DNA of 38,526 nucleotides from contig JAJYUW010000008.1 of the NCBI GenBank assembly GCA_021792335.1, forward strand, positions 1 through 38,526. Direction: 5' to 3'. Of the stretch, positions 12,393 to 25,046 are shown piece by piece; position 1 is the first letter of the stretch, and every line of letters begins with the position of its first letter. Both the position numbers and the translations under genes were made by a program. The notes below the pieces were generated by a model. It saw nothing but the letters and a program-made list of their open reading frames with translations. It was not told the origin of the DNA and ran no database searches. The stretch comes from Pseudomonadota bacterium (lineage in GTDB: Bacteria > Pseudomonadota > Gammaproteobacteria > Burkholderiales > Sulfuricellaceae).

Positions 12393-14243
12393 TTAAGCGT
12401 CGTTCCTGGCTATTTCTGCTGAAGGCGCCACTGTCGGAGTGTAGTCGGGCCACGGCTCGCCGTCCGGCAGCACAGGTCCGCGGCATTCCGGGAAGATGCG
12501 GTTCTTGCAGCCACGGCAGACGGCCGGGTCGAGGGTGAAATAGATGGCATGGGTCACGTTGGATCGGGCCGGGAAGAAGCCGCCCACGCCGATGTCTTTC
12601 AGGTAATCTCCCTTGCTCAGGAATTTGTACACATTGTCCTTGAGTCGGTAGAAGTACAGGCCGCCGCCCATTTTCCTGCGCCGCTTCGCTTCCTGCGCCA
12701 GCATTTCCGCGCCGGCCACGTCGACGAAATTGATGCCGCTGGCCATGATGACCACGGTTTTCTGCAATGGGTTGGCTTCGTCGATCTGCAGCAGCCCGCC
12801 CTGGATGTGATCGACTGCGCCAAAGAAGATGGAGCCGTTGATGCGCATCATCCGCACCTGGGGGCATTCCTTGTGGCCCTTGGCATCCTCGAAGTGGTAG
12901 GCGCCTTCTACGCCGGCAGGCACCACGGGCGCCATGGAGGGGCGGGAAACGCGATACAGGTAAAGGATCAGCGATACCATGATGCCGACGAAAATGCCTT
13001 TTTCCAGGTTGATCAGGGTGCCGATCAAGGTGATCCAGAGCACCAGCGTTTCGGAGCGGCTGGTGCGCCAGATGCTGCCGATGTGATGAAAGTCGATCAA
13101 ACCCCATGCCACCAGGAACAGAATGCCGGCCATGGCCGCGGTGGGCAGATAGGCGGCGAGCGGCGCCACCAGGAGCACAGTCAGCGCCAGCGCGATGGCG
13201 GCGAACACCGTGGCGAGCGGGGTGATGGCGCCGGAAGCGTAGTTTACGCCGCTGCGGTTGAAGGAGCCGCTGGAAGCGTAGGCGGAAAAAAAGCTGCCGA
13301 CAATGTTGGACAAACCCTGGCCGATGAATTCCTGATTGCCGTCGATGCGCTGCTCGGATCTGGTTGCGATGGCACGCCCGATGGAGACCGCCTCGGTCAG
13401 CGCCAGCATGGTAACCACCAGCGCTGGGAAGAACATGTGAACCAGCGTGTTATAGGAAAAATCCGGATGAGAGAGCGGCGGCAGGTGCGAGGGCAGCGCG
13501 CCGACTGTCTTGATGTGGGTCGTGTCGAAGCCTTCCAGGGCGGTGAGAAGATAGGCGATCAGGCTGCCCACGACCATGGCCACGATCATGTAGGGAAGTT
13601 TCGGCAGGAATCGCTTGGCAAGTATGCCGGTGATCAGGGTGATCAGGCCGATGCTGGTGACCCAGGGATTGAGGTCGCCAATTTGCAGAAACAACTGGTG
13701 GATGGTTTCAATAAACGTCGTCCCGCGCGGGATTTTGATGCCGAAAAAGTTTTTGATCTGGCTGGCGGCGATCAGGATCGCTGCGCCGGCGGTGAAGCCC
13801 AACACCACGGTGTGAGAGATGAAATTGACCAGAACCCCCATGCGCGCAAGCCCCAGAACGAGCTGAAACACGCCGGTGAGAAAGGTGAGGGTCAGCACCA
13901 TGCTGACGAATTCGGGGGTGCCGGGCGCGGCGACATGGGAAACCGAGGCGAATACGGCAATCGAAATCGCGGTGGTGGGGCCGGACACCAGATGCCAGCT
14001 GGAGCCGAACAGGGCCGCGACAATCGCCGGCATCATCGCGGCGTAGAGGCCGTATTCCGGCGGCAGTCCGGCAATGGTGGCGAATGCCACGCCCTGCGGT
14101 AGAACGATCAGGGCGCCCGTAACCCCGGCGGTCAGATCGGCGCGGAGAGCATCTTTGGTGACCATGGGCCACCAGCGCAGGAAAGGAAATACTCGGTACA
14201 GCCAAAGCCTGCATGAGGGGCGGTTCGCTAACATGGTTTCCAA
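12393..14243 (-). CDS. SulP family inorganic anion transporter with STAS domain
   Basis: 616 aa from TTG 14243, chosen because AGGGAG sits 7 bp upstream; ATG 14234 (fourth codon) is the alternative. The SulP signature region (LTAGVTGALIVLPQGVAFAT, PPEYGLYAAMMPAIVAALFG, SGPTTAISI) and about 12-14 membrane helices are followed by a STAS domain (about 440-560). After STAS there is a Cys-containing tail (CRGCKNRIFPEC, then a Pro-rich end). SulP proteins carry sulfate, bicarbonate or related anions through the inner membrane. It is divergent from the chromate resistance genes across a 195-bp AT-rich gap; since chromate is a sulfate mimic, a link is plausible. Substrate not determined. Confidence 0.92.
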   Translation of the reverse strand: METMLANRPSCRLWLYRVFPFLRWWPMVTKDALRADLTAGVTGALIVLPQGVAFATIAGLPPEYGLYAAMMPAIVAALFGSSWHLVSGPTTAISIAVFASVSHVAAPGTPEFVSMVLTLTFLTGVFQLVLGLARMGVLVNFISHTVVLGFTAGAAILIAASQIKNFFGIKIPRGTTFIETIHQLFLQIGDLNPWVTSIGLITLITGILAKRFLPKLPYMIVAMVVGSLIAYLLTALEGFDTTHIKTVGALPSHLPPLSHPDFSYNTLVHMFFPALVVTMLALTEAVSIGRAIATRSEQRIDGNQEFIGQGLSNIVGSFFSAYASSGSFNRSGVNYASGAITPLATVFAAIALALTVLLVAPLAAYLPTAAMAGILFLVAWGLIDFHHIGSIWRTSRSETLVLWITLIGTLINLEKGIFVGIMVSLILYLYRVSRPSMAPVVPAGVEGAYHFEDAKGHKECPQVRMMRINGSIFFGAVDHIQGGLLQIDEANPLQKTVVIMASGINFVDVAGAEMLAQEAKRRRKMGGGLYFYRLKDNVYKFLSKGDYLKDIGVGGFFPARSNVTHAIYFTLDPAVCRGCKNRIFPECRGPVLPDGEPWPDYTPTVAPSAEIARNDA

Positions 14244-14438: not shown

Positions 14439-15395
14439 TTGAAATCTTTGTTCAGTACTGAAAAATGGTTGGCCCTGGTCGTGAGTTTGCCGACCTCGAG
14501 TACCGCATTACGCATGCGGGTGTGGCGTGCGCTAAAAGCACTTGGATGTGCCGTGTTGCGCGATGGCGTCTACTTGCTTCCCGCCGGGCGGGGGTTGAGG
14601 CAGGCTTTGCGCATGCACGCGGAAGAAATCAAGCAGGGCGGCGGAAATGCCTATTTGTTGAATGTCACCAATCCGTCCACCGAGGAGAAATCGGATTTCC
14701 AGGGCCTGTTTGACCGCCGAGAGGAATACCGCGAACTGGTGCGACGGATCGGTGCGTTCCAGGCGGGGTTTGCGGCGCTTGACGCAAATGCCGCACGGCG
14801 TCAGCTCAAGCTGCTGCGGCGTGACCTGGAAGCGCTGGTGGCGGTGGACTATTTTCCGGGGGCGGGGAAAGCGAATGCGGAAGACGCGCTGACTGAAGCC
14901 GAGGCGGTTTTTCTTGCCAGGATGACGCCGGGAGAGCCAGGCGCCACCCCCGGTGCGGTCAAGCCGCGCAAGAAGTCGGCGTACCGGAACCGCCTTTGGG
15001 CCACCCGCCGTCATTTGTGGGTGGACCGTATGGCGAGTGCCTGGTTGATCCGCCGCTTCATCGATCCGCAGGCGCGTTTCATGTGGCTGGAGGCGCCGGA
15101 AGATTGCCCGCCACAGGCTGTGGGGTTCGATTTTAACGGTGCCGATTTTACCCATGTCGGCAACCGGGTGACGTTCGAGGTACTGCTGGCCAGTTTCGGG
15201 CTGGAGTCTGATGCGGCCCTGGTGAAGATGGGCGGCCTGGTGCATTGTCTCGATGTGGGCGGCACGCCGGTGGCGGAAGCGGCCGGGGTGGAGATGGTGC
15301 TGGCCGGTATTAGGCAGCGCTGCGCGGATGACGATGCGTTGCTGGCGAACGTATCGGCGATTTTTGATTCGTTGTATGCGGGTTTGACTGAATAA
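14439..15395 (+). CDS. chrB: ChrB-type chromate resistance regulator
   Basis: 318 aa. The start is TTG 14439, with AGGAG (14425-14429) nine bases upstream; no in-frame ATG fits. The N-terminal part (KWLALVVSLPTSSTALRMRV, LRDGVYLLPAG) is the ChrB N-terminal domain and the C-terminal part from about 185 (NRLWATRRHLWVDRMASAWL, IRRFIDPQARFMWL) is the ChrB C-terminal domain. ChrB is reported in other bacteria as a chromate-sensing regulator of the chr operon. chrA follows 46 bp later in the same direction. Confidence 0.9.
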   Translation: MKSLFSTEKWLALVVSLPTSSTALRMRVWRALKALGCAVLRDGVYLLPAGRGLRQALRMHAEEIKQGGGNAYLLNVTNPSTEEKSDFQGLFDRREEYRELVRRIGAFQAGFAALDANAARRQLKLLRRDLEALVAVDYFPGAGKANAEDALTEAEAVFLARMTPGEPGATPGAVKPRKKSAYRNRLWATRRHLWVDRMASAWLIRRFIDPQARFMWLEAPEDCPPQAVGFDFNGADFTHVGNRVTFEVLLASFGLESDAALVKMGGLVHCLDVGGTPVAEAAGVEMVLAGIRQRCADDDALLANVSAIFDSLYAGLTE

Positions 15396-15441: not shown

Positions 15442-16776
15442 ATGTCTGAAAATACCGCACCCCCCGCGCCGACGCTCGGCGAGGCCCTCAAGTACTGGCT
15501 CAAGCTCGGCTTCATCAGCTTCGGCGGCCCCGCCGGGCAGATTTCGATGATGCATCAGGAGCTCGTCGAGCGGCGGCGCTGGATTTCCGAGCACCGCTAC
15601 CTGCACGCCCTCAACTACTGCATGCTGCTGCCGGGGCCGGAGGCGACCCAGCTCGCCATCTACATCAGCTGGCTGCTGCATGGCGTGCGCGGCGCGGTGG
15701 TGGCGGGGGTGCTGTTCTTCCTGCCGGCCTTCGTGCTGCTGTCCCTGCTGGCAGGCATCTATCTGGCCTTCGGCGACGTGCCCGCCGTGCAGGGCATCTT
15801 CTACGGCATCAAGCCCGCCGTCGTCGCCGTGGTGCTGTTTGCCGCCTGGCGCATCGGCGCGCGTGCGCTGAAGAACGAGGTGCTGATGGGGATTGCGGCG
15901 CTGGCCTTTATCGGCATCTTCTTTTTCCGGATCGACTTTCCCTGGATCGTGCTGGCTGCCGGCCTGCTCGGCGCGGTGGGCGGCAAGCTGATGCCGGCAA
16001 AGTTCAAGGGCGGCGGCAGCCACGGCCCCAGCCACAAGGCCTACGGCCCGGCGCTGATCGACGACGATACGCCGCCGCCGGCTCATGCCCGGTTTTCCTG
16101 GGGCAAGCTGACGCTGACGGTCGCGGTGTTCGTGCTGATCTGGCTCGCCGCCATGCTGGCGATCAGCGGTATGCCAGACCTGTACAACATGGGCGAGTTC
16201 TTCACCAAGGCCGCCTTCCTCACCATCGGCGGCGCTTATGCCGTGCTGCCCTATGTCTATCAGGGCGGTGTGGAGCACTTCGGCTGGCTGACCGGCCCGC
16301 AGATGATGGACGGCCTGGCGCTGGGCGAAACCACGCCGGGGCCGCTGATCATGGTGGTGACCTGGGTCGGCTATCTCGGCGGCGTCGCCAAGACAGTATT
16401 CGACAATCCCATCATCGCCGGCCTCGCCGGCGCGGGCGTCGCCACCTTCTTCACCTTCCTGCCAAGCTTCTTTTTCATCCTGGCCGGCGGGCCGCTGATC
16501 GAGGCGACGCGCGGCGAGCTGAAATTCACCGCGCCGCTGACCGCCATCACCGCGGCCGTGGTCGGCGTGATTCTCAATCTCGCCACCTTCTTCGCCTGGC
16601 ACACCTTCTGGCCCCAGGCCACCGAGGCCGCGCCCTTTGCCGGCCCATTCGACGCCCTCCCGGTGGTCGTCGCCATCGCCTCCTTCGTCGCGCTGTGGAA
16701 GTACAAGGCCGACATCATGAAGGTGATCGGCGCCTGTGCGGCCATCGGCCTGATTTACTCCTTCATTGCCTTCTAA
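15442..16776 (+). CDS. chrA: Chromate efflux transporter ChrA (two-domain CHR family)
   Basis: 444 aa, ATG 15442, with AAAGGAG just upstream. Two CHR domains: the first with SFGGPAGQISMMHQELVERR and LLPGPEATQLAIYISWLLHG (about 28-80), the second with IGGAYAVLPYVYQGGVEHFG and LGETTPGPLIMVVTWVGYLG (about 255-315), separated by a hydrophilic linker near 190-210 (GGGSHGPSHK). About 10-12 membrane helices. It exports chromate from the cytoplasm, driven by the proton motive force in studied members. The gene is noticeably richer in C and G than its chrB neighbour. Confidence 0.95.
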   Translation: MSENTAPPAPTLGEALKYWLKLGFISFGGPAGQISMMHQELVERRRWISEHRYLHALNYCMLLPGPEATQLAIYISWLLHGVRGAVVAGVLFFLPAFVLLSLLAGIYLAFGDVPAVQGIFYGIKPAVVAVVLFAAWRIGARALKNEVLMGIAALAFIGIFFFRIDFPWIVLAAGLLGAVGGKLMPAKFKGGGSHGPSHKAYGPALIDDDTPPPAHARFSWGKLTLTVAVFVLIWLAAMLAISGMPDLYNMGEFFTKAAFLTIGGAYAVLPYVYQGGVEHFGWLTGPQMMDGLALGETTPGPLIMVVTWVGYLGGVAKTVFDNPIIAGLAGAGVATFFTFLPSFFFILAGGPLIEATRGELKFTAPLTAITAAVVGVILNLATFFAWHTFWPQATEAAPFAGPFDALPVVVAIASFVALWKYKADIMKVIGACAAIGLIYSFIAF

Positions 16777-17666: not shown

Positions 17667-19061
17667 CTAAGCGGGGGGTTCGGCTTGATTCTCTCCGGCG
17701 TTGTAGGTTTTAAGCTTTCGCCATAAAGAGACACGGTTGATATCAAGAACCTGAGCGGCTACAGTCTGGTTGCCTCCAACCTCGTTCAGCACCCATCGGA
17801 TGTATTCCTTTTCCTGCTCTTCCAGGGTCATGATCGCCCCGTCCTTTTTCCTGAACCGGGTACCGCTTTCAAGCAGGTTATCGGGAAGATGCGCCAACTC
17901 TATCGCGTGGCTATTGGTAATCGCCGTGCCTCTTTCGACAATGTTCTCCAGTTCGCGCACATTGCCCGTAAATTCATGGTTCATTAGCTTTGCCAGCGCT
18001 TCCGGGGATATTTCCGTGACATTTTTCTTCATCTGCGCAGCGTATTTCTGCAAAAAATGGTTGATCAGTAAAGGAAGGTCATCCATGCGCTGGGATAGCG
18101 CGGGAATATGCAGATTGACGACATTCAGCCTGAAATACAAATCCTGGCGAAATGATCCTCGCTTGACTTCTTCAGTGATGTCGCGGTTTGTGGCCGCAAC
18201 GATGCGGACATCAACCTTAACTGGTTTTGTGGCGCCCAGGCGGAGCACCTCCTTCTCCTGGATGACCCGCAATAGCTTGACCTGCATCTCCGTAGGCATC
18301 TCGGTGATTTCATCCAGAAACAGCGTGCCGCCGGACGCGGCTTCCATCAGCCCTGTTTTTGATGTAGTTGCCCCAGTGAACGCGCCTTTCTCGTGCCCGA
18401 AAAGTTCGTTGGATAGCAGTTCCATGCTAAATGCGCCGCAGTTGACAGCTATGTATGGGCCGTTGACCCGGTTGCTTTGGTTATGCAAGTAGCGGGCGAA
18501 TAGTTCTTTCCCGGTGCCGCTCTCGCCGGTGACGAGGACATTGCAGTCCGTAGGCGCGATTTGCTTTGCAAGATCGAGCAGCCGCCGCATGCCGGCGTCC
18601 TGCGTGATGATCTGCACTTTGCCCTGATAGCGTTCGACTTGTTCCCGCAACTGCCTGTTTTCGCGCCGCAGGCGAACCTTCTCCATGGCTTCGCCGGTGA
18701 TTTTTCTGACTTCCTCCAGGCGGAACGGCTTGGCGATGTAATAAAAGGCGCCTTCCTTCATCGCTTCCACGGCGGTCTCTGCCGTCGCATAACCCGTGAT
18801 CATGATCACTTCCGTGTCGGGAGAGGCCGCCCGGCATGCCTTTAATAGCTGCATCCCGTCCATCTTTTCCATTTGCAGGTCGGTCAATACGACGTCGAAT
18901 GGCTGGTCCTTGATCAGCGCCAGCGCCTCCTCGCCACTCTGGGTGCCCGCAACCTCGTAGCCCTCCTTAGACATGACGTGCTTGAGATTTTTCAGGGCGA
19001 CTTCTTCGTCGTCGACGATGAGCACTTTTCCGTGTTTTTGCATTTTGTCGCGTAATTCCAT
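17667..19061 (-). CDS. NtrC-family sigma-54-dependent response regulator
   Basis: 464 aa, first ATG 19061 (a second, M7, is possible). Receiver domain about 12-125 with acidic DD (17-18), phospho-acceptor D61 and K111. AAA+ sigma-54 activation domain about 150-380 with Walker A GESGTGKE (179-186) and the sigma-54 contact loop GAFTGA (226-231). Fis-type helix-turn-helix at about 425-455 (GGNQTVAAQVLDINRVSLWR). It should activate sigma-54 promoters by ATP hydrolysis after phosphorylation. It lies 15 bp downstream of the histidine kinase gene on the same strand. The best target in the window is the -24/-12 promoter at 20757-20772. Confidence 0.95.
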   Translation of the reverse strand: MELRDKMQKHGKVLIVDDEEVALKNLKHVMSKEGYEVAGTQSGEEALALIKDQPFDVVLTDLQMEKMDGMQLLKACRAASPDTEVIMITGYATAETAVEAMKEGAFYYIAKPFRLEEVRKITGEAMEKVRLRRENRQLREQVERYQGKVQIITQDAGMRRLLDLAKQIAPTDCNVLVTGESGTGKELFARYLHNQSNRVNGPYIAVNCGAFSMELLSNELFGHEKGAFTGATTSKTGLMEAASGGTLFLDEITEMPTEMQVKLLRVIQEKEVLRLGATKPVKVDVRIVAATNRDITEEVKRGSFRQDLYFRLNVVNLHIPALSQRMDDLPLLINHFLQKYAAQMKKNVTEISPEALAKLMNHEFTGNVRELENIVERGTAITNSHAIELAHLPDNLLESGTRFRKKDGAIMTLEEQEKEYIRWVLNEVGGNQTVAAQVLDINRVSLWRKLKTYNAGENQAEPPA

Positions 19062-19076: not shown

Positions 19077-20549
19077 TTAAGTGTCTTGAAGCGGCAATCT
19101 GATATTAAAGGAGGTTCCCTGATCTGGCGCGCTATTCACGGAAATGCAGCCATCATGCTCCTCGATAATTTCATGAACAATGAACAGGCCCAGCCCCATT
19201 CCCTTGCCAACATCCTTGGTGGTGAAGAACGGATCGAATATCCGCGGGAGGATTTCAGGGGGGATTCCGTGGCCATTGTCCTTGACCGTGATATCCACGG
19301 CGTTTGCTTCTGTGTGGCAACCCGGAAATAAATCAGGGTTGCTTTCCGGTTTCTCGGAAGGTATGTGCTTGCGCGCCGAAATCGATACTTTGCCCCTTTC
19401 CCCCGCGGACTCCACCGCATTCTTGACCAGGTTGAGAATGGCCTGCTGCAATCTCTGGCGGTCTGCAGGAATGACGATGTCTTCAGGGATGTCGATTGCA
19501 ACCGTCGCTTGTGCGGGAATCTCGCCTTTGATGAAGCGCACGGTTTGATAAACGAGTTCCCGGAAGGGCGCCGGCTCCTTGCTAAACGCCTTGTCGCGCG
19601 CAAAATTCAGCAGCGACCGGACTATCGTTCTTGCGCGCTCTGTCTGCTCGTCAATTTGCTTCAATAATTCTCTTTTTGCATCCGTGTCGGCGTCTTCTAT
19701 CTCTTCCAGCAAGATCTGGCAGGAAGACGAAATGTTCGACAGCGGGTTGTTGAGTTCATGGGCTACCCCGGACAACATCGTTCCCAGGGACGCGAGCTTC
19801 TCCGAGCGCAGCAGGTGCTTCTGCCTCAACTCCAGCTCCCTGAGCATGTGGTTGAATGTGTTGATGATAGAAACGATTTCGCGGTCACGGGAAGGCATGG
19901 ACAGCTTGTTGAGTTCGCCCCTGGAAACCGCATCTACGCTGTTTTCCATTTGCTTCAGCGGAAGCACTACGCTCCGCAGCAGGGCTTGCCCGATCGCAAT
20001 AATCAACCCTGCCACGACGGCCAGAGAAAAGATCAGGGTTCTTTTGAACGAATCGAGCGAAGACTGAACCAGTCGTCGTTCAGTGCCGGCCATGTCCTCC
20101 GCGATGTCAACGATCACCTTGCCGGCAGACCTGATCCGGTGCTCAAGGCGGCGGGCCCGGGCCAGGTCTTCATTGCCTGCCCGGACGTAGTCCTCCATCA
20201 GCTTGCTGTATTTTTCCAGTTCGTCATGCAGCGTTCCTATGCGCTGTGACGCCTGCAGCACTGCAAAGTCGGACTTGTCTTTTACCAACAGGGTTTGCAT
20301 CTTGCTGACGTAGCGAACGTTCTCCTGGTAGTCGGGCGCCTGTCCGTGCAGGAAGTAGTTCCGCTCGAACCTGCGAATTTCCAGGGCCGTATCAAAAAGC
20401 TCCGAGATTCTTTCGCCGAGAAAGATTTTTTCCTCGATCAGAGTGAGCTTCGCAAAAGTGAACGCCGTGCCGCCAAGGATGAGGATGGCGATTGCGAAAT
20501 AACCGAGAATAATTTTCTGGCGCAGTGAGGACTGGAAGTTGATTTTCAT
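19077..20549 (-). CDS. Membrane sensor histidine kinase (HAMP-HisKA-HATPase), partner of the sigma-54 regulator
   Basis: 490 aa from ATG 20549 ([11 protein letters not shown]); a 42-codon upstream extension to 20675 lacks family character and is rejected. TM1 is about 12-34, a helical periplasmic sensor about 35-170 (contains [20 protein letters not shown]), TM2 about 171-191, HAMP about 192-244, HisKA with H264 in [13 protein letters not shown], and HATPase with N box, [20 protein letters not shown] and [18 protein letters not shown]. Architecture resembles ZraS/HydH-type kinases. The signal is unknown; neighbouring SulP and TauE/SafE genes suggest sulfur oxyanions or envelope stress. No strong Shine-Dalgarno was seen. 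Confidence 0.92.
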
Positions 20550-20582
20550 GATTAACAAAACATTACTCCAAGTTGTTGCTAT

Positions 20583-20619
20583 ATGCAACGCACGTGCATT
20601 AATTTGCAATACTATGCAA
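20583..20619. promoter_or_regulatory. Two tandem TGCA dyads: candidate enhancer (UAS) for the sigma-54 regulator
   Basis: ATGCA-N7-TGCAT (20583-20587 / 20595-20599) and TTGCA-N6-TGCAA (20604-20608 / 20615-20619) have centres about 20.5 bp apart, two helical turns. They lie about 140-175 bp upstream of the -24 box, a normal distance for NtrC-type enhancers, and only about 35-70 bp from the kinase start codon, so autoregulation of the kinase-regulator operon is also possible. Confidence 0.55.
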
Positions 20620-20756
20620 GTTTCAGAATCAGAAGGGTTTTCATGGAATATGTGAATCCGGATTTTCTCTTGCATGTTACATAATTAAACGCTAATAGCC
20701 CTGAAGAATGCTCATGCAGGGCAATAACACATTCATTAACAATATGTTATAAAAAA

Positions 20757-20772
20757 TGGCATGGAAGGTGCT
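20757..20772 (+). promoter_or_regulatory. Sigma-54 (-24/-12) promoter of the 66-aa gene
   Basis: The 16-mer from 20757 begins TGGCATG and ends GTGCT. The invariant GG (20758-20759) and GC (20770-20771) have exactly the consensus spacing of TGGCACG-N4-TTGCW. The predicted start of transcription is near 20783, about 40 bp before ATG 20823. Confidence 0.75.
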
Positions 20773-20822
20773 TAGTTAATTGTGAATTGTAATTTCAACT
20801 CACATTATTAAGCGGGGGAACA

Positions 20823-21023
20823 ATGAAAGCATTATTTCGAAAAATTGATCGGTTGTTTACGGCTATCTCTTATGCAGAGGCGGGAGATCTGGATGCGGTG
20901 CAAAAAATTCTCGATGAAAACAAGTTGGAGAGGGAAAGCAGGAAGATCCGGAAAAGTGATGGCATGGCAAATGGCATTTCATTTCCCGAGTTCATGCTGA
21001 CGGCCCAACAGGAGGCCAGGTAA
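20823..21023 (+). CDS. Small (66 aa) cytoplasmic protein under sigma-54 control, unknown function
   Basis: ATG 20823 with a strong GGGGGA ribosome binding site (20814-20819). The sequence MKALFRKIDRLFTAISYAEA then GDLDAVQKILDENKLERESR predicts an amphipathic helix pair; the C-terminal end is less charged. No signal peptide, no membrane helix, no cysteine. I recall similar short proteins next to TauE/SafE permeases and sigma-54 regulators in sulfur-metabolising proteobacteria, but know no function. A role as adaptor or regulator of one of the transporters or the kinase is a guess. Its own promoter (20757-20772) marks it as a prime target of the adjacent two-component system. Confidence 0.78.
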   Translation: MKALFRKIDRLFTAISYAEAGDLDAVQKILDENKLERESRKIRKSDGMANGISFPEFMLTAQQEAR

Positions 21024-21237
21024 TAGAGCGTGAGCGCATTTGGACAAGACAAGATCGGTTCACTGGGCTGACACATCGCAGCCTTGGAACTCTCGGGAGT
21101 CTCGACTTTATCTTTGCGCAAATTACTAACGCTATTCCTGAAGGCGGCATAGCCATGTGGGCACTCGACATGCCCGGATTATTAAATTTAACCGCATATT
21201 TTTTTGTGCGTGTAGAACGATAAAGTTAGAAAAATTT
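21024..21237. other. 214-bp gap before the second SulP gene, no clear element
   Basis: Nothing coding was recognised here. The second half is AT-rich and could hold a weak promoter for SulP, but no good -10/-35 or -24/-12 pair was found. No strong terminator follows the 66-aa gene, so read-through from its sigma-54 promoter into SulP is possible. Confidence 0.4.
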
Positions 21238-22929
21238 ATGGACACTGCGATTCGCTTCTTTCCCTTTTTACGAATGTTCCGATTAGACGGCGAGACAATC
21301 AAGGCGGACTTGATTGCCGGCCTCACCGTCTCACTCGTCGCTATCCCCCAAGCCCTGGCTTATGCGCAACTGGCTGGGGTTCCGGCCTATTATGGTCTTT
21401 ATGCAGCTTTGATACCCACAATTGTTGGCGCATTGTTTGGGTCTTCCGGGCAGCTCTCGACCGGACCAGTTGCCATGACGTCGCTATTGACCGCGGCTAG
21501 CGTTGCCCCATTGGCAGCCCATGGAAGTGAACAGTTCATTGCCTATGTGATCCTGTTGGCCCTGTTGTCCGGTATTTTCCAGGTCGCTTTTGGCGCTATG
21601 CGGATGGGTGTGTTGCTCAACTTCCTGTCGCATCCGGTTTTGATGGGTTTTATTAATGCGGCTGCAATCATTATCGGTTTGTCGCAACTTCCAACATTAT
21701 TGGGCATCCCTGCCCAGCAGTCTGACCATTTCCTGCTTGATATCTGGCAGGTTATATCCAGCATCGATATGGTGCATGAACTTTCTCTGGGCTTTGGCCT
21801 TTCGGCAATTATCCTTTTAGTGTGCTTCAAAAAATTTGCGCCAAAACTGCCAGGGGTCTTGATCACGGTTTCTTTGTTGACTTGGGCAAGCTACCTACTT
21901 GGATATGCGAAAATGGGTGGCAAGGTGGTTGGAAATGTGCCTCAAGGATTGCCGACTTTTAGCATGCCGCTTTCGGATTGGCATGCTACCGTTGCTCTTT
22001 TGCCAGCCGCTTTCGTGATCGCGCTTATCAGCTTCATGGAAGCCATGTCCAGTTCGAAGGTGATTGCCCTCAAAACACGTCAACCCTGGGACGAAAACAA
22101 GGAGCTGATTGGTCAAGGGCTTGCAAAGATTGCCGCTGCTTTCAGCCACTCAATGCCAGTTAGCGGCTCGTTTTCCCGTTCGGCATTGAATCTGGCCTCG
22201 AATGCCAAGACTGGGCTCTCTTCGATTTTTGCCGCGCTCTTTGTATTGCTTACACTGCTGTTTTTCACCTCGTTACTCTATCATTTGCCTAAACCTGTGC
22301 TTGCCGCGATTATCATGATGGCAGTCATTGGGCTGATTAATTTCCGCGTCTTCACAAAGGCGTGGCGCACCAATAAGGATGATGGCGTTGCTTCAATAGT
22401 AACTTTCATTGCTACGCTCGTATTTGCACCAAGTATTCAGAATGGCATTCTGACGGGGATCATTCTATCCCTGGCCTTGTTGCTGTACCGCATGATGCGT
22501 CCAACCATCACATCACTTGGAATTCAGCAAGGCTCCATGCTCCGTGATGCTGATCGTAACAACCTCCCCCAAATACACCCGAAGTTAGGCGCAATCCGCT
22601 TTGATGGAGCGCTCAGATTCGTCAATGTTTCATATTTCGAGGAAGCGCTATTAAAACTGGAAAGAGATCGCCCGGGGATAAGTCATATTCTGGTGAAATG
22701 CAGTGGGGTTAACGATCTGGATTCATCTGGCGTGGAGATGATTTTCAATCTGGTCGAGCGCTTCAAAAATATGGGGATTACCTTGACTTTCAGTGGGCCG
22801 AAAAAACAGGTCCTGAGTGTCATGAATCGAAGCGGACTTTCCCAAAAAATCGGCGAAGAAAATATTTTTGCGACCGACCGGGAAGCGATCGATGGGCTTT
22901 GTCGGCAACTGGAACCAAACCCGGTTTGA
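21238..22929 (+). CDS. SulP family anion transporter with STAS domain (second copy)
   Basis: 563 aa from ATG 21238 (MDTAIRFFPFLRMFRLDGET); a GTG at 21157 would add 27 residues of poor quality. SulP core about 15-410 (AGLTVSLVAIPQALAYAQLA, PAYYGLYAALIPTIVGALFG, STGPVAMTSLL) and a STAS domain about 440-555 (GALRFVNVSYFEEALLKL, VNDLDSSGVEMIFNLVERF). The conserved DSSG of STAS is present. Likely a sulfate or related anion symporter in the inner membrane. Base composition is lower in GC than the first SulP gene and the chrA region, and it is only distantly similar to the first copy. It follows the sigma-54-driven 66-aa gene and probably belongs to its regulon. Confidence 0.92.
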   Translation: MDTAIRFFPFLRMFRLDGETIKADLIAGLTVSLVAIPQALAYAQLAGVPAYYGLYAALIPTIVGALFGSSGQLSTGPVAMTSLLTAASVAPLAAHGSEQFIAYVILLALLSGIFQVAFGAMRMGVLLNFLSHPVLMGFINAAAIIIGLSQLPTLLGIPAQQSDHFLLDIWQVISSIDMVHELSLGFGLSAIILLVCFKKFAPKLPGVLITVSLLTWASYLLGYAKMGGKVVGNVPQGLPTFSMPLSDWHATVALLPAAFVIALISFMEAMSSSKVIALKTRQPWDENKELIGQGLAKIAAAFSHSMPVSGSFSRSALNLASNAKTGLSSIFAALFVLLTLLFFTSLLYHLPKPVLAAIIMMAVIGLINFRVFTKAWRTNKDDGVASIVTFIATLVFAPSIQNGILTGIILSLALLLYRMMRPTITSLGIQQGSMLRDADRNNLPQIHPKLGAIRFDGALRFVNVSYFEEALLKLERDRPGISHILVKCSGVNDLDSSGVEMIFNLVERFKNMGITLTFSGPKKQVLSVMNRSGLSQKIGEENIFATDREAIDGLCRQLEPNPV

Positions 22930-23049: not shown

Positions 23050-23763
23050 CTAAATTTCTTTTCTGACTTTGGCTTTATGCATGGTCAGGCCCACACCCTT
23101 GAACAGGAAGAAGATGGCAAAGCCCCACCACAGGGTGTACAGCACATAGAATGCAAGGATTCCAGTGACGAGAAGCGCTTTCTCGCCGATGTGTTCCGGC
23201 GGAATGGTATAGAAGTTGTACGCGGTTTCGACGGCCTTGTTTTTTACGGCATGGACCAGTTTCGCTTCCTCGATCATTTTCGCCTGTTTGAGTTTCTTGT
23301 CGAGCCGTTCAAGAATCTGCCACCAGGTTTCCATAACCTTGCGTTCGTCAAGGCCATATATGGCCGTTACCGCTTTGCCGTCGTTGTTGTACATGCGGTC
23401 CGAATCCGCCAGCACCTTGTCCATCAGCCCGCCAAGATCGCCGCTGACTTCCATGGTTTTGCCTCTTGCCCAGGCCTGCGCGCCTGCGGTGGACAATACA
23501 CCTAGCGCCGTTTCGGCCTGTGCCGCCTTTTCCATCTCTAAGGTCACCGCAAAGGGTTTGCCGCGAAACGCTGCGTTTTCTTCCTGAAGCTTGGGGATAA
23601 AGTATGACGATCCCTTCGACAGTTTATTGAACATGTCGTCGGAGAACTGCAGGCCGGTCCTGCCAGCGCCGTAGATGGGCGAGAAAATCATCGCCAGCAC
23701 ACCGCAGAAGGTGATTGCGAGGAAGGCGCCAATTGAGAAGGACTTGTTGTCGACGATGATCAT
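23050..23763 (-). CDS. Two-helix membrane protein coupled to TauE/SafE permease, unknown function
   Basis: 237 aa from ATG 23763, chosen because AGGGAGGA lies 6 bp upstream and the ATG overlaps the permease stop (ATGA 23760-23763). TM1 about 10-30 (SIGAFLAITFCGVLAMIFSP), a charged helical loop of about 165 residues that should lie in the periplasm (rich in Lys, Glu, Ala; no cysteine), and TM2 about 196-221 (TGILAFYVLYTLWWGFAIFF). Short basic C-terminus. The architecture resembles a ligand-binding or scaffold subunit of the permease. I know no named family. Translational coupling argues strongly for a stoichiometric partner of the permease. Confidence 0.8.
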   Translation of the reverse strand: MIIVDNKSFSIGAFLAITFCGVLAMIFSPIYGAGRTGLQFSDDMFNKLSKGSSYFIPKLQEENAAFRGKPFAVTLEMEKAAQAETALGVLSTAGAQAWARGKTMEVSGDLGGLMDKVLADSDRMYNNDGKAVTAIYGLDERKVMETWWQILERLDKKLKQAKMIEEAKLVHAVKNKAVETAYNFYTIPPEHIGEKALLVTGILAFYVLYTLWWGFAIFFLFKGVGLTMHKAKVRKEI

Positions 23764-25046
23764 GATTGTTCCTCCCTCCGCAACGCGCCGATGCTGGTGA
23801 CGAATTTGCCGATAACCCATGCGCCGAATGTCACGACAACGATCCAGAAGACGATGTTTCCGCCTATCTCAATGGCGTTGACCACAGGTCTGGACATCTC
23901 GATGTACTCAAGCTCGACCATTTTCTTGGGCAGCGTGCTTGCCCGGTTGATGAACCCGGCAAGAATTGATAATGCAAAGAACCCCCTGATTTGGCAGCCA
24001 CTGACGACCTTGGTGGTGAGGGCGCCCACCTGTATGCCGATCAGGGAGCCGATCAGCATGCCGATGGCGAGCGTGTAAAAGACGTAGCCGTAAATCGCAT
24101 ACTGGAAGATGGATGCAAGTCCGGCGGTGAAGATGATCTGCAGGATATCCGTGCCAACGGTGGTGGCGGTGGAGACGCCGAAGACATAGACGAACATCGG
24201 GAAAGTGATAAATCCGCCGCCGACGCCCATGATCGCCGCCAGCATGCCGACTATGAGGCCCCCTATCGCCAGGAACAGCCATGAGATTTTCTTGCCGCCT
24301 TCGACAAAATCATGGTCGAAGCTGATCATCGGCGGGATGTTCACTTTCTGCAGCTGCAGCGCAAAGTTCGTGGTGGCTATCCGGGCCTGACGACTGCGGT
24401 CCTCACAACTTAATCCGGCGGCCCGCGCCTTGAGATAGTCTATCAGGGAGTAGAGGCTGAGGAAGCCGAGGAGAACGGCGTAGACGGTGCTGATGAATGC
24501 CTCGCTCAACAATGGGTCCTTGTTGTAAAGCCCCAGATTGATCGCGCCGCCGATGAATGTCCCGGCAGCCGAACCAACCAGAAACGCCAGCGCGAGCTTG
24601 ACCGAGACGTTGCCCAGTTTTGCATGCACCGTCGTTCCCATGATTGCTTTGGCAAAGATATGGAATACGTCCGTTCCCACTGCCAGGATGCCTTTCACGC
24701 CGGCGGCCATCAGTGCCGGGGCGATGATGAAGCCCCCTCCCGCACCGATGGCGCCGGTGATGAGTCCGGCGAACAGGCCGATGGCGATCGAGACGAGAAA
24801 GATATTGGTGGTGTAGAAAGCAGGGGCGTAGGCGGTTTTGCCGCCGAGCATCGGCACTGCTTCCACCAGGGCCACGCCAAGTATGGGAAGAAGCAGGAGA
24901 AGCAGCATCATTTTCTTGTTCTTGACGATGTTCGTCGAAATTTCCATGTCCCACTGGGCGTGGGCTCGTGAAGCTGCCATGAGAAATTCGTACAGCTTCC
25001 TTGGGCCGCTCATGGATTTGGCAGCCTCGTTATTGTGGTCGTTCAT
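23760..25046 (-). CDS. TauE/SafE family sulfite/sulfonate exporter-type permease
   Basis: 428 aa from ATG 25046 (MNDHNNEAAKSMSGP); an in-frame extension to 25217 would overlap DUF1841 and the promoter region and is rejected. A cytoplasmic N-terminus of about 50 residues leads to about 8 membrane helices with the two glycine-rich half-repeats typical of the family: GLITGAIGAGGGFIIAPALM and GMLAAIMGVGGGFITFPMFV, each followed by a GTD motif (VGTDVFHIF and VGTDILQII). A hydrophilic loop of about 55 residues separates the halves. Family members export sulfite, sulfoacetate and other small organosulfur anions. It is the first gene of an operon with the two-helix membrane protein. Confidence 0.92.
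   Translation of the reverse strand: MNDHNNEAAKSMSGPRKLYEFLMAASRAHAQWDMEISTNIVKNKKMMLLLLLLPILGVALVEAVPMLGGKTAYAPAFYTTNIFLVSIAIGLFAGLITGAIGAGGGFIIAPALMAAGVKGILAVGTDVFHIFAKAIMGTTVHAKLGNVSVKLALAFLVGSAAGTFIGGAINLGLYNKDPLLSEAFISTVYAVLLGFLSLYSLIDYLKARAAGLSCEDRSRQARIATTNFALQLQKVNIPPMISFDHDFVEGGKKISWLFLAIGGLIVGMLAAIMGVGGGFITFPMFVYVFGVSTATTVGTDILQIIFTAGLASIFQYAIYGYVFYTLAIGMLIGSLIGIQVGALTTKVVSGCQIRGFFALSILAGFINRASTLPKKMVELEYIEMSRPVVNAIEIGGNIVFWIVVVTFGAWVIGKFVTSIGALRREEQS

Follow-up and report, generated by a model that had tools for sequence, protein, structure and literature searches.

A candidate sigma-54 two-component module with a 66-aa protein gene and anion transporters in a Sulfuricellaceae genome, and its possible link to inorganic carbon

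The locus, its promoter and a putative activator site

The window, by which we mean the whole stretch of 38,526 nucleotides that was analysed, belongs to a fragmented, 75%-complete genome (G000:C259). It contains a gene for a 66-aa protein (P0001; 20823 to 21023, plus strand), whose ATG is preceded by the ribosome binding site GCGGGGGA, so the earlier note's description of this reading frame was borne out. An intergenic region of 273 bp (20550 to 20822) has this gene on one side and, on the other, a divergent minus-strand pair made up of a sensor histidine kinase (19077 to 20549; HAMP, HisKA and HATPase_c domains) and an NtrC-type sigma-54 response regulator (17667 to 19061; receiver, Sigma54_activat and HTH_8 domains). 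Both had been proposed from the letters, and both are confirmed by their Pfam domains and by an intact GAFTGA motif in the regulator. SulP2 (21238 to 22929, plus strand) starts 214 bp behind the 66-aa gene in the same direction, and has both the Sulfate_transp and the STAS domain of SulP/SLC26 anion transporters (PF00916, E 2e-96; PF01740, E 1.1e-18); its best match among solved structures is a plant chloroplast sulfate transporter.

Three further transporter genes were found in the window: SulP1, a second SulP transporter (12393 to 14243, minus strand; PF00916, E 5.1e-99), a ChrA chromate-type anion transporter (15442 to 16776, plus strand; PF02417, E 4.9e-74), and a TauE/SafE (TSUP) transporter (23760 to 25046, minus strand; PF01925, E 1.9e-38). 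The gene preceding ChrA (14439 to 15395) is presumably ChrB-like, and another gene near the 66-aa gene presumably rhodanese-like. The reading frame beside TauE (23050 to 23763, minus strand) has no Pfam or NCBIfam match. When the sister genome (locus L016) was compared with window positions 23050 to 25046, it gave no TauE match, and the neighbour at 23050 to 23763 was reduced to its last 41 residues; its ChrA match also skips about 218 residues relative to 15442 to 16776. These gaps are either real deletions or assembly faults.

A -24/-12 element with exact GG-N10-GC spacing, TGGCATGGAAGGTGCT (20757 to 20772, plus strand), is present 51 bp before the ATG of the 66-aa gene, as the earlier note had stated, and has the same letters in the sister. 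It scores 10 in our home-made consensus count, in which GG and GC are obligatory. A loose consensus with up to three mismatches gave 185 matches in the window against 202 expected and is uninformative by itself. The information lies in position: a box of at least 9.5 was found 32–65 bp 5' of the aligned start in 12/12 short-form relatives of the small gene (described below), while no box of at least 9 was found within 300 bp of the 11 other copies. Scanning 764,646 positions in 22 loci returned 16 sites with scores of at least 10, and for 11 of these the aligned start of a short-form gene lies 32–65 bp downstream. With GG-N10-GC in a context near TGGCAC-N5-TTGCW and its position conserved in all 12, the element is predicted to be a sigma-54 promoter. 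The 66-aa gene had been called the only gene directly behind it. It is the nearest, but SulP2 follows in the same direction with one weak terminator-like site in the 214-bp gap (21093 to 21105), in a region that shows no enrichment of such sites over shuffles (2 against 3.9 expected).

The putative activator site is a conserved palindrome of the form GTTGC-N5-GCAAC, GTTGCTATATGCAAC (20575 to 20589), which is centred 241 bp before the ATG of the 66-aa gene and comes within 26 bp of the kinase ATG. It overlaps the left half of the first of two TGCA dyads that the earlier note had proposed as distal activator sites. The letters of both dyads are there, but as activator sites neither recurs beyond the sister among the 12 short-form upstream regions: TGCA-N7-TGCA occurs in two (window and sister) and TTGCA-N6-TGCAA in the window alone. 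The sister keeps the first GTTGC-N5-GCAAC site with one spacer letter changed, and its second TGCA dyad is broken.

We derived the GTTGC-N5-GCAAC motif by reading the 12 short-form upstream regions. With at most one mismatch, it lies within 400 bp upstream of all 12 short forms and of none of the 11 other copies; across 500 dinucleotide shuffles of the 12 regions, an average of 0.25 and at most 3 had a site. Paired sites were observed in nine of the 12, at 99–109 bp (108–109 bp in six), against a shuffle mean of 0.012 for pairs 95–125 bp apart. Since the motif was drawn from these same regions, the loci outside the window's class are the better test. In the window, GTTACATAATTAAAC (20676 to 20690), 101 bp from the first site, matches the placement of the relatives' second site; with three mismatches here and two in the sister, it is a possible degenerate second activator site that is not callable on its own in the window.

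The palindrome alone does not define a regulon, given that 11 whole genomes have 2–8 perfect copies each, compared with 0–6 for a control pattern. The small gene has one perfect copy in nine of these genomes and a site with one mismatch in the other two. Of the four perfect palindromes in the window's own genome, only GTTGCTATATGCAAC has an all-A/T spacer. SulP1 stands just behind the regulator in several relatives. The motif, with zero or one mismatch, was also observed just before SulP1 at L023:13013-13027, L025:8853-8867 and L022:13324-13338, in the first two of which that SulP1 stands behind the regulator; no sigma-54 box of at least 9.5 was found near these three sites.

The regulator has the features of the NtrC type, namely a receiver, a sigma-54 AAA+ domain with GAFTGA and a Fis-type helix-turn-helix, together with predicted distal palindromes upstream of the promoter in 12/12 relatives. 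It scored below the cut-offs of all 25 NCBIfam models listed: AtoC (445, cut-off 714), NtrC (396, cut-off 559) and the PEP-CTERM regulator (369, cut-off 503) were rejected as names for it, as was ZraR at its curated cut-off. Among the 15 readable relatives of the short-form and outside-class sets, 14 have [ND]RVSLWRKLK as the recognition helix, a count in which L128 was unreadable and L125 and L141 are one gene; the remaining case, L065, has NRSSLWRKLK.

Relatives of the module and of the small protein

Matches to the small protein were found in 9 of 300 genomes of the window's order. In its family, 14/22 genomes matched at E up to 0.01 and 13 were counted, with G665 (E 0.0056, in a 1,381-aa frame) left out; L003, whose match lies inside a 1,004-aa frame, was dropped. 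In all, 23 copies were taken together with their flanks, the family supplying 19 and three other genomes of the order four. They comprise 12 short forms, 10 N-terminally extended forms (mostly MRISS-like) and the odd copy L022, which belongs to neither group and was tallied with the extended forms. Searches of plasmids found nothing at E up to 1.

In 12/12 short-form loci of the order, the small gene is accompanied by the kinase, the activator site and the sigma-54 box. Each of the 11 loci other than the window has a kinase homologue transcribed away from the small gene, with 94% identity to the window's kinase in the sister and 51–56% in the other ten. The regulator was seen in 11 of the 12 loci (96% identity in the sister, 64–72% elsewhere), one being missed because its contig ends. 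An anion transporter comes next in the same direction in 11/12: SulP in six (three of them a long version), TSUP in four, and ChrA in one, where a 102-aa reading frame stands between. In L025, ChrA is convergent with the small gene. On the co-occurrence check suggested with the original observation, the kinase is divergent in 12/12 short forms and TSUP is next in 4/12.

All ten extended forms stand directly before a SulP2 homologue, abutting or overlapping it, and they, like L022, are without promoter box and activator site. Nine of the ten are preceded by a receiver-domain match in the same orientation; three of these matches we take, by their look, to be OmpR-like, and in L019 and L020 a kinase upstream of the extended form was confirmed by Pfam. 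L021:9832-11994 encodes a 720-aa SulP with an insertion of ~127 residues mid-protein, followed by NDH/Hyf-like subunit genes, and similar split SulP matches were seen in L019, L025, L060 and L062.

When the phylum was searched with 23 rows, 8/398 genomes matched, the window's own included. The class of one such match was then searched, and 24 places in 14/48 genomes matched at E up to 0.01. In each of the 21 loci inspected there, which amount to 16 neighbourhoods, genes for a kinase, SulP, Chr or TSUP protein lie no farther than 1.5 kb away; L137, L138 and L153, second repeats of known neighbourhoods, were left uninspected. Among loci of a control pattern, 4/49 had such genes, and all four were small-gene neighbourhoods. 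Outside the window's class, 14/16 loci have the activator site and 12 the spaced pair (shuffle means 0.30 and 0.01). This set comprised 15 loci of the other class and L092, with L148 omitted for too little upstream sequence; none of the 16 had been used to define the motif, although the L088 site had been seen by eye before testing. A box of at least 8.5 stands 31–84 bp before the match in 12/17 outside loci, L147 has one of 8.0, and L148, L149, L159 and L160 have none of at least 7.5. L148, L159 and L160 also have no site at up to one mismatch and no kinase match within a locus of 3 kb or shorter. Small YAEAG/YAEEG reading frames were observed directly before ChrB-ChrA in L148 and L159, where the small protein may stand outside this circuit.

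Four weaker protein matches, L029, L030 and L031 from the window's class (E 5.5e-4 to 8.8e-4) and L163 from its order (E 6.1e-4), have boxes of 10–11 at 36–46 bp and diverged sites. We accepted them as relatives because a divergent kinase homologue (31–41% identity) and a downstream SulP adjoin. L164-L170 and L044, without such neighbours, were taken as chance matches. In the last phylum search, 24/398 genomes matched at E up to 0.005, and several of these matches are due to chance.

The 66-aa protein has a conserved core around FTAISYAEAGDLDAVQKIL, which is kept over the 23 copies in the order, and a variable tail. Between window and sister, its gene has seven differences in synonymous codons and three in nonsynonymous ones. 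AlphaFold2 places helices at residues 2–19 and 23–46 (mean pLDDT 71, pTM 0.41), a predicted helical hairpin for which Foldseek gave a best E of 3.6. Neither Pfam (E up to 0.001) nor NCBIfam (E up to 1) matched the protein; the model contains helices only, with no sign of a universal-stress (Usp) alpha/beta domain.

Longer relatives carry more than the core. In the other class, the core occurs twice, side by side, in 8/14 genomes, and the second core, where read, is joined to a domain of ~120 residues; in L123 both cores are fused. The L124 domain (L124:9792-10256) was modelled as alternating alpha/beta (mean pLDDT 70, low over the first 27 residues), and universal stress proteins made up 12 of its top 13 solved-structure matches (best Z 9.9, rmsd 3.1, 110 aligned); the best Foldseek E was 4.8e-3. 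The Pfam Usp model gave no match at E up to 10 in five longer-form proteins. L029-L031 and L163 combine the core with a C-terminal part that aligns weakly to the L124-type domain, and a PDB sequence search with the L029 longer form had a best E of 0.28. From the one case modelled, the further domain looks universal-stress-protein-like. Because longer relatives add this domain to the core, the 66-aa protein is probably the minimal form of a family with such longer members.

Inorganic carbon and the competing explanations

The neighbourhoods of several relatives point towards inorganic carbon. DabA stands behind SulP in L124 (E 3e-236) and L126 (E 5e-236). In genome G014, the small gene (at 93.1 kb) is the first of a run that continues with a long SulP and NDH-like genes. 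The opposite strand then carries a CsoSCA-like gene (PF20686, E 2.5e-7), an 879-aa reading frame and a LysR-type gene, and RuBisCO follows at 109 kb on the same strand as the small gene, all within 17 kb. Since the CsoSCA-like and LysR genes lie on the other strand, this RuBisCO link is one of place only. A RuBisCO model matched 20/22 family genomes, including the window's own, although it also matches genomes like B. subtilis. Across the same 22 genomes, DabA was found in seven, the small protein in 13 and both in one (Fisher p=0.0066, with genomes that are not independent and with G665 entered as having no small protein); ancestry or an overlooked longer form could account for this exclusion. 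The SulP, Chr and DAC families include inorganic-carbon transporters, according to the available text of PMC10880623. PMC12628692 describes a low-CO2 growth test in E. coli for proteins of Thiomicrospira pelophila, which a carboxysome-linked SulP and a DAC passed and another SulP and a Chr protein failed. Taken together, the DabA adjacency, the RuBisCO neighbourhood, the replacement pattern and the published roles of SulP, Chr and DAC favour inorganic carbon. We hold with moderate confidence, from evidence that consists of associations, that this is what the module answers.

Conservation of promoter, site and gene order, together with the predicted folds, lets binding, signal, substrate, co-transcription and protein function be proposed as follows. 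The divergent kinase would sense a shortage, most likely of inorganic carbon (CO2/bicarbonate), and phosphorylate the NtrC-type regulator. The regulator would bind GTTGC-N5-GCAAC ~200 bp upstream of the predicted start, and in most relatives also at ~100 bp, and drive the -24/-12 promoter through sigma-54. The 66-aa gene would then be the leader gene of a transporter unit, with the small protein and, by read-through, an anion transporter as output: SulP here and, elsewhere, TSUP, ChrA, a long SulP with NDH-like genes, or SulP with DabA. The small protein itself would most likely be a helical-hairpin accessory regulator of a transport or sensing step, much as TeaD is for TeaABC, and the module may serve bicarbonate uptake in bacteria that fix CO2. 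As a whole, we judge this explanation of sigma-54 two-component control in response to inorganic-carbon shortage to have somewhat better than even prospects.

Its parts differ in strength. That the 66-aa gene is a sigma-54 target of the adjacent two-component system is well supported by comparison across relatives. The earlier proposal that the small protein is a main output of the system holds insofar as it is a conserved predicted target, with the module kept together in 12/12 loci of the order and in most loci outside the class. Its further suggestion, that the protein tunes the nearby transporters, is consistent with the association of one of three unrelated transporter families with 11/12 short forms. 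A regulon centred on the small protein is too narrow a description, because the transporters look like co-regulated outputs and the longer relatives carry a further domain. That promoter and dyads are chance matches is barely credible to us: the loose consensus is at chance level in the window and perfect palindromes number 2–8 per genome against 0–6 for the control pattern, but chance would not account for a position conserved in 12/12 relatives or a site in 14/16 loci outside the class. An untranslated or dispensable leader, acting as upstream ORF or attenuator of the transporter operon, would fit a short, first-placed reading frame with a variable tail. We find this very improbable, given a protein core that persists across the order's 23 copies as well as at loci beyond the class, a similar core fused to a further domain elsewhere, and L025, where the next transporter is convergent and so leaves nothing behind the small gene to lead.

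Two other alternatives deserve more weight, although we consider each unlikely. The small protein might act back on the kinase or regulator, as a feedback element or adaptor, instead of on a transporter. The kinase-regulator pair is the constant neighbour of the short forms and the transporter varies between SulP, TSUP and ChrA; a same-strand receiver match lies upstream of 9/10 extended forms (with Pfam-confirmed kinases in L019 and L020); and a universal-stress domain is found inside the kinase KdpD (fold match 7ji4). A transporter link is favoured by the extended forms that abut or overlap SulP in 10/10 cases, and by L148, L159 and L160, which have Chr or SulP genes and no kinase match (locus 3 kb or shorter). 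That the transporters belong to three unrelated families speaks against a fixed structural subunit and makes a single physical partner less likely, while the kinase links and the stress-protein-like longer forms argue for a regulator role. The system might also answer sulfur or other anions, since sulfate, sulfite and chromate are among the substrates of the SulP, TSUP and ChrA families, and the transporters would then move those and not bicarbonate. The Pfam names (sulfate permease, TauE sulfite exporter, chromate transporter) and the plant sulfate transporter matched by SulP2 fit this, as do nine TSUP/PSE operons of unassigned substrate in the D. vulgaris sigma-54 set (available text of PMC4641369). 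Against it stand the adjacency of DabA, the RuBisCO/CsoSCA-like neighbourhood and the pattern of replacement with DabA, and inorganic carbon remains our preferred reading of the signal.

A broader reading is tentative, and we would sooner expect it to fail than to hold. In it, the unnamed family, a YAEAG/FAEAG hairpin with or without a universal-stress-like domain, would be the hallmark of a sigma-54 pathway for inorganic-carbon scarcity and a plug-in regulator for SulP, TSUP, ChrA and SulP-DabA, with a two-site enhancer that both the window's order and another class of the phylum retain and that has diverged in other orders of the window's class.

Comparison with known systems

To our knowledge, LysR-type regulators apart, little has been established about how chemoautotrophic bacteria detect a lack of CO2. 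The module offers a concrete candidate, with a kinase, a regulator with a defined putative DNA site, a promoter, transporters and a small protein; the site and the gene order would also give SulP, TSUP and ChrA genes without an assigned substrate a regulatory context. A literature search found no description of this module, which is no proof of absence.

The AtoSC, ZraSR and NtrBC type is alike in having a kinase with a receiver-AAA-Fis GAFTGA regulator, distal palindromes and a -24/-12 promoter. The module differs from these systems in its own motif, GTTGC-N5-GCAAC, and in its likely targets, a small protein and anion transporters. In D. vulgaris, small proteins with a similar FAEAG core presumably occur beside TauE genes. 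For the same organism, the available parts of PMC3333781 and PMC4641369 describe DVU0539, and DVU0946 with DVU2133-2132, as likewise sigma-54 regulators of transport or hypothetical-protein operons; regulators there are tied to lactate use, and the likeness to our module is by description only.

For the small protein, the nearest precedent by analogy is TeaD of Halomonas, a universal-stress-family protein that is encoded beside the TRAP transporter TeaABC and modulates it (available text of PMC9006882). The model of the longer relative matches the TeaD fold at Z 8.7. In contrast to TeaD, the 66-aa protein is without a universal-stress domain, and the transporters and their regulation are unrelated.

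Inorganic-carbon uptake in chemoautotrophs involves the same families (SulP, Chr, DAC/DabAB) in RuBisCO hosts (PMC10880623, PMC12628692). The main texts of both papers contain no mention of sigma factors or two-component systems, and that of PMC10880623 none of a small protein. In Thioalkalivibrio, the available text of PMC5744179 places G372_RS0112645, a sigma-54 GAFTGA regulator, six genes upstream of a RuBisCO/carboxysome operon; it is tied to carbon fixation by place and expression, and resembles our regulator, by description, in being of the GAFTGA kind.
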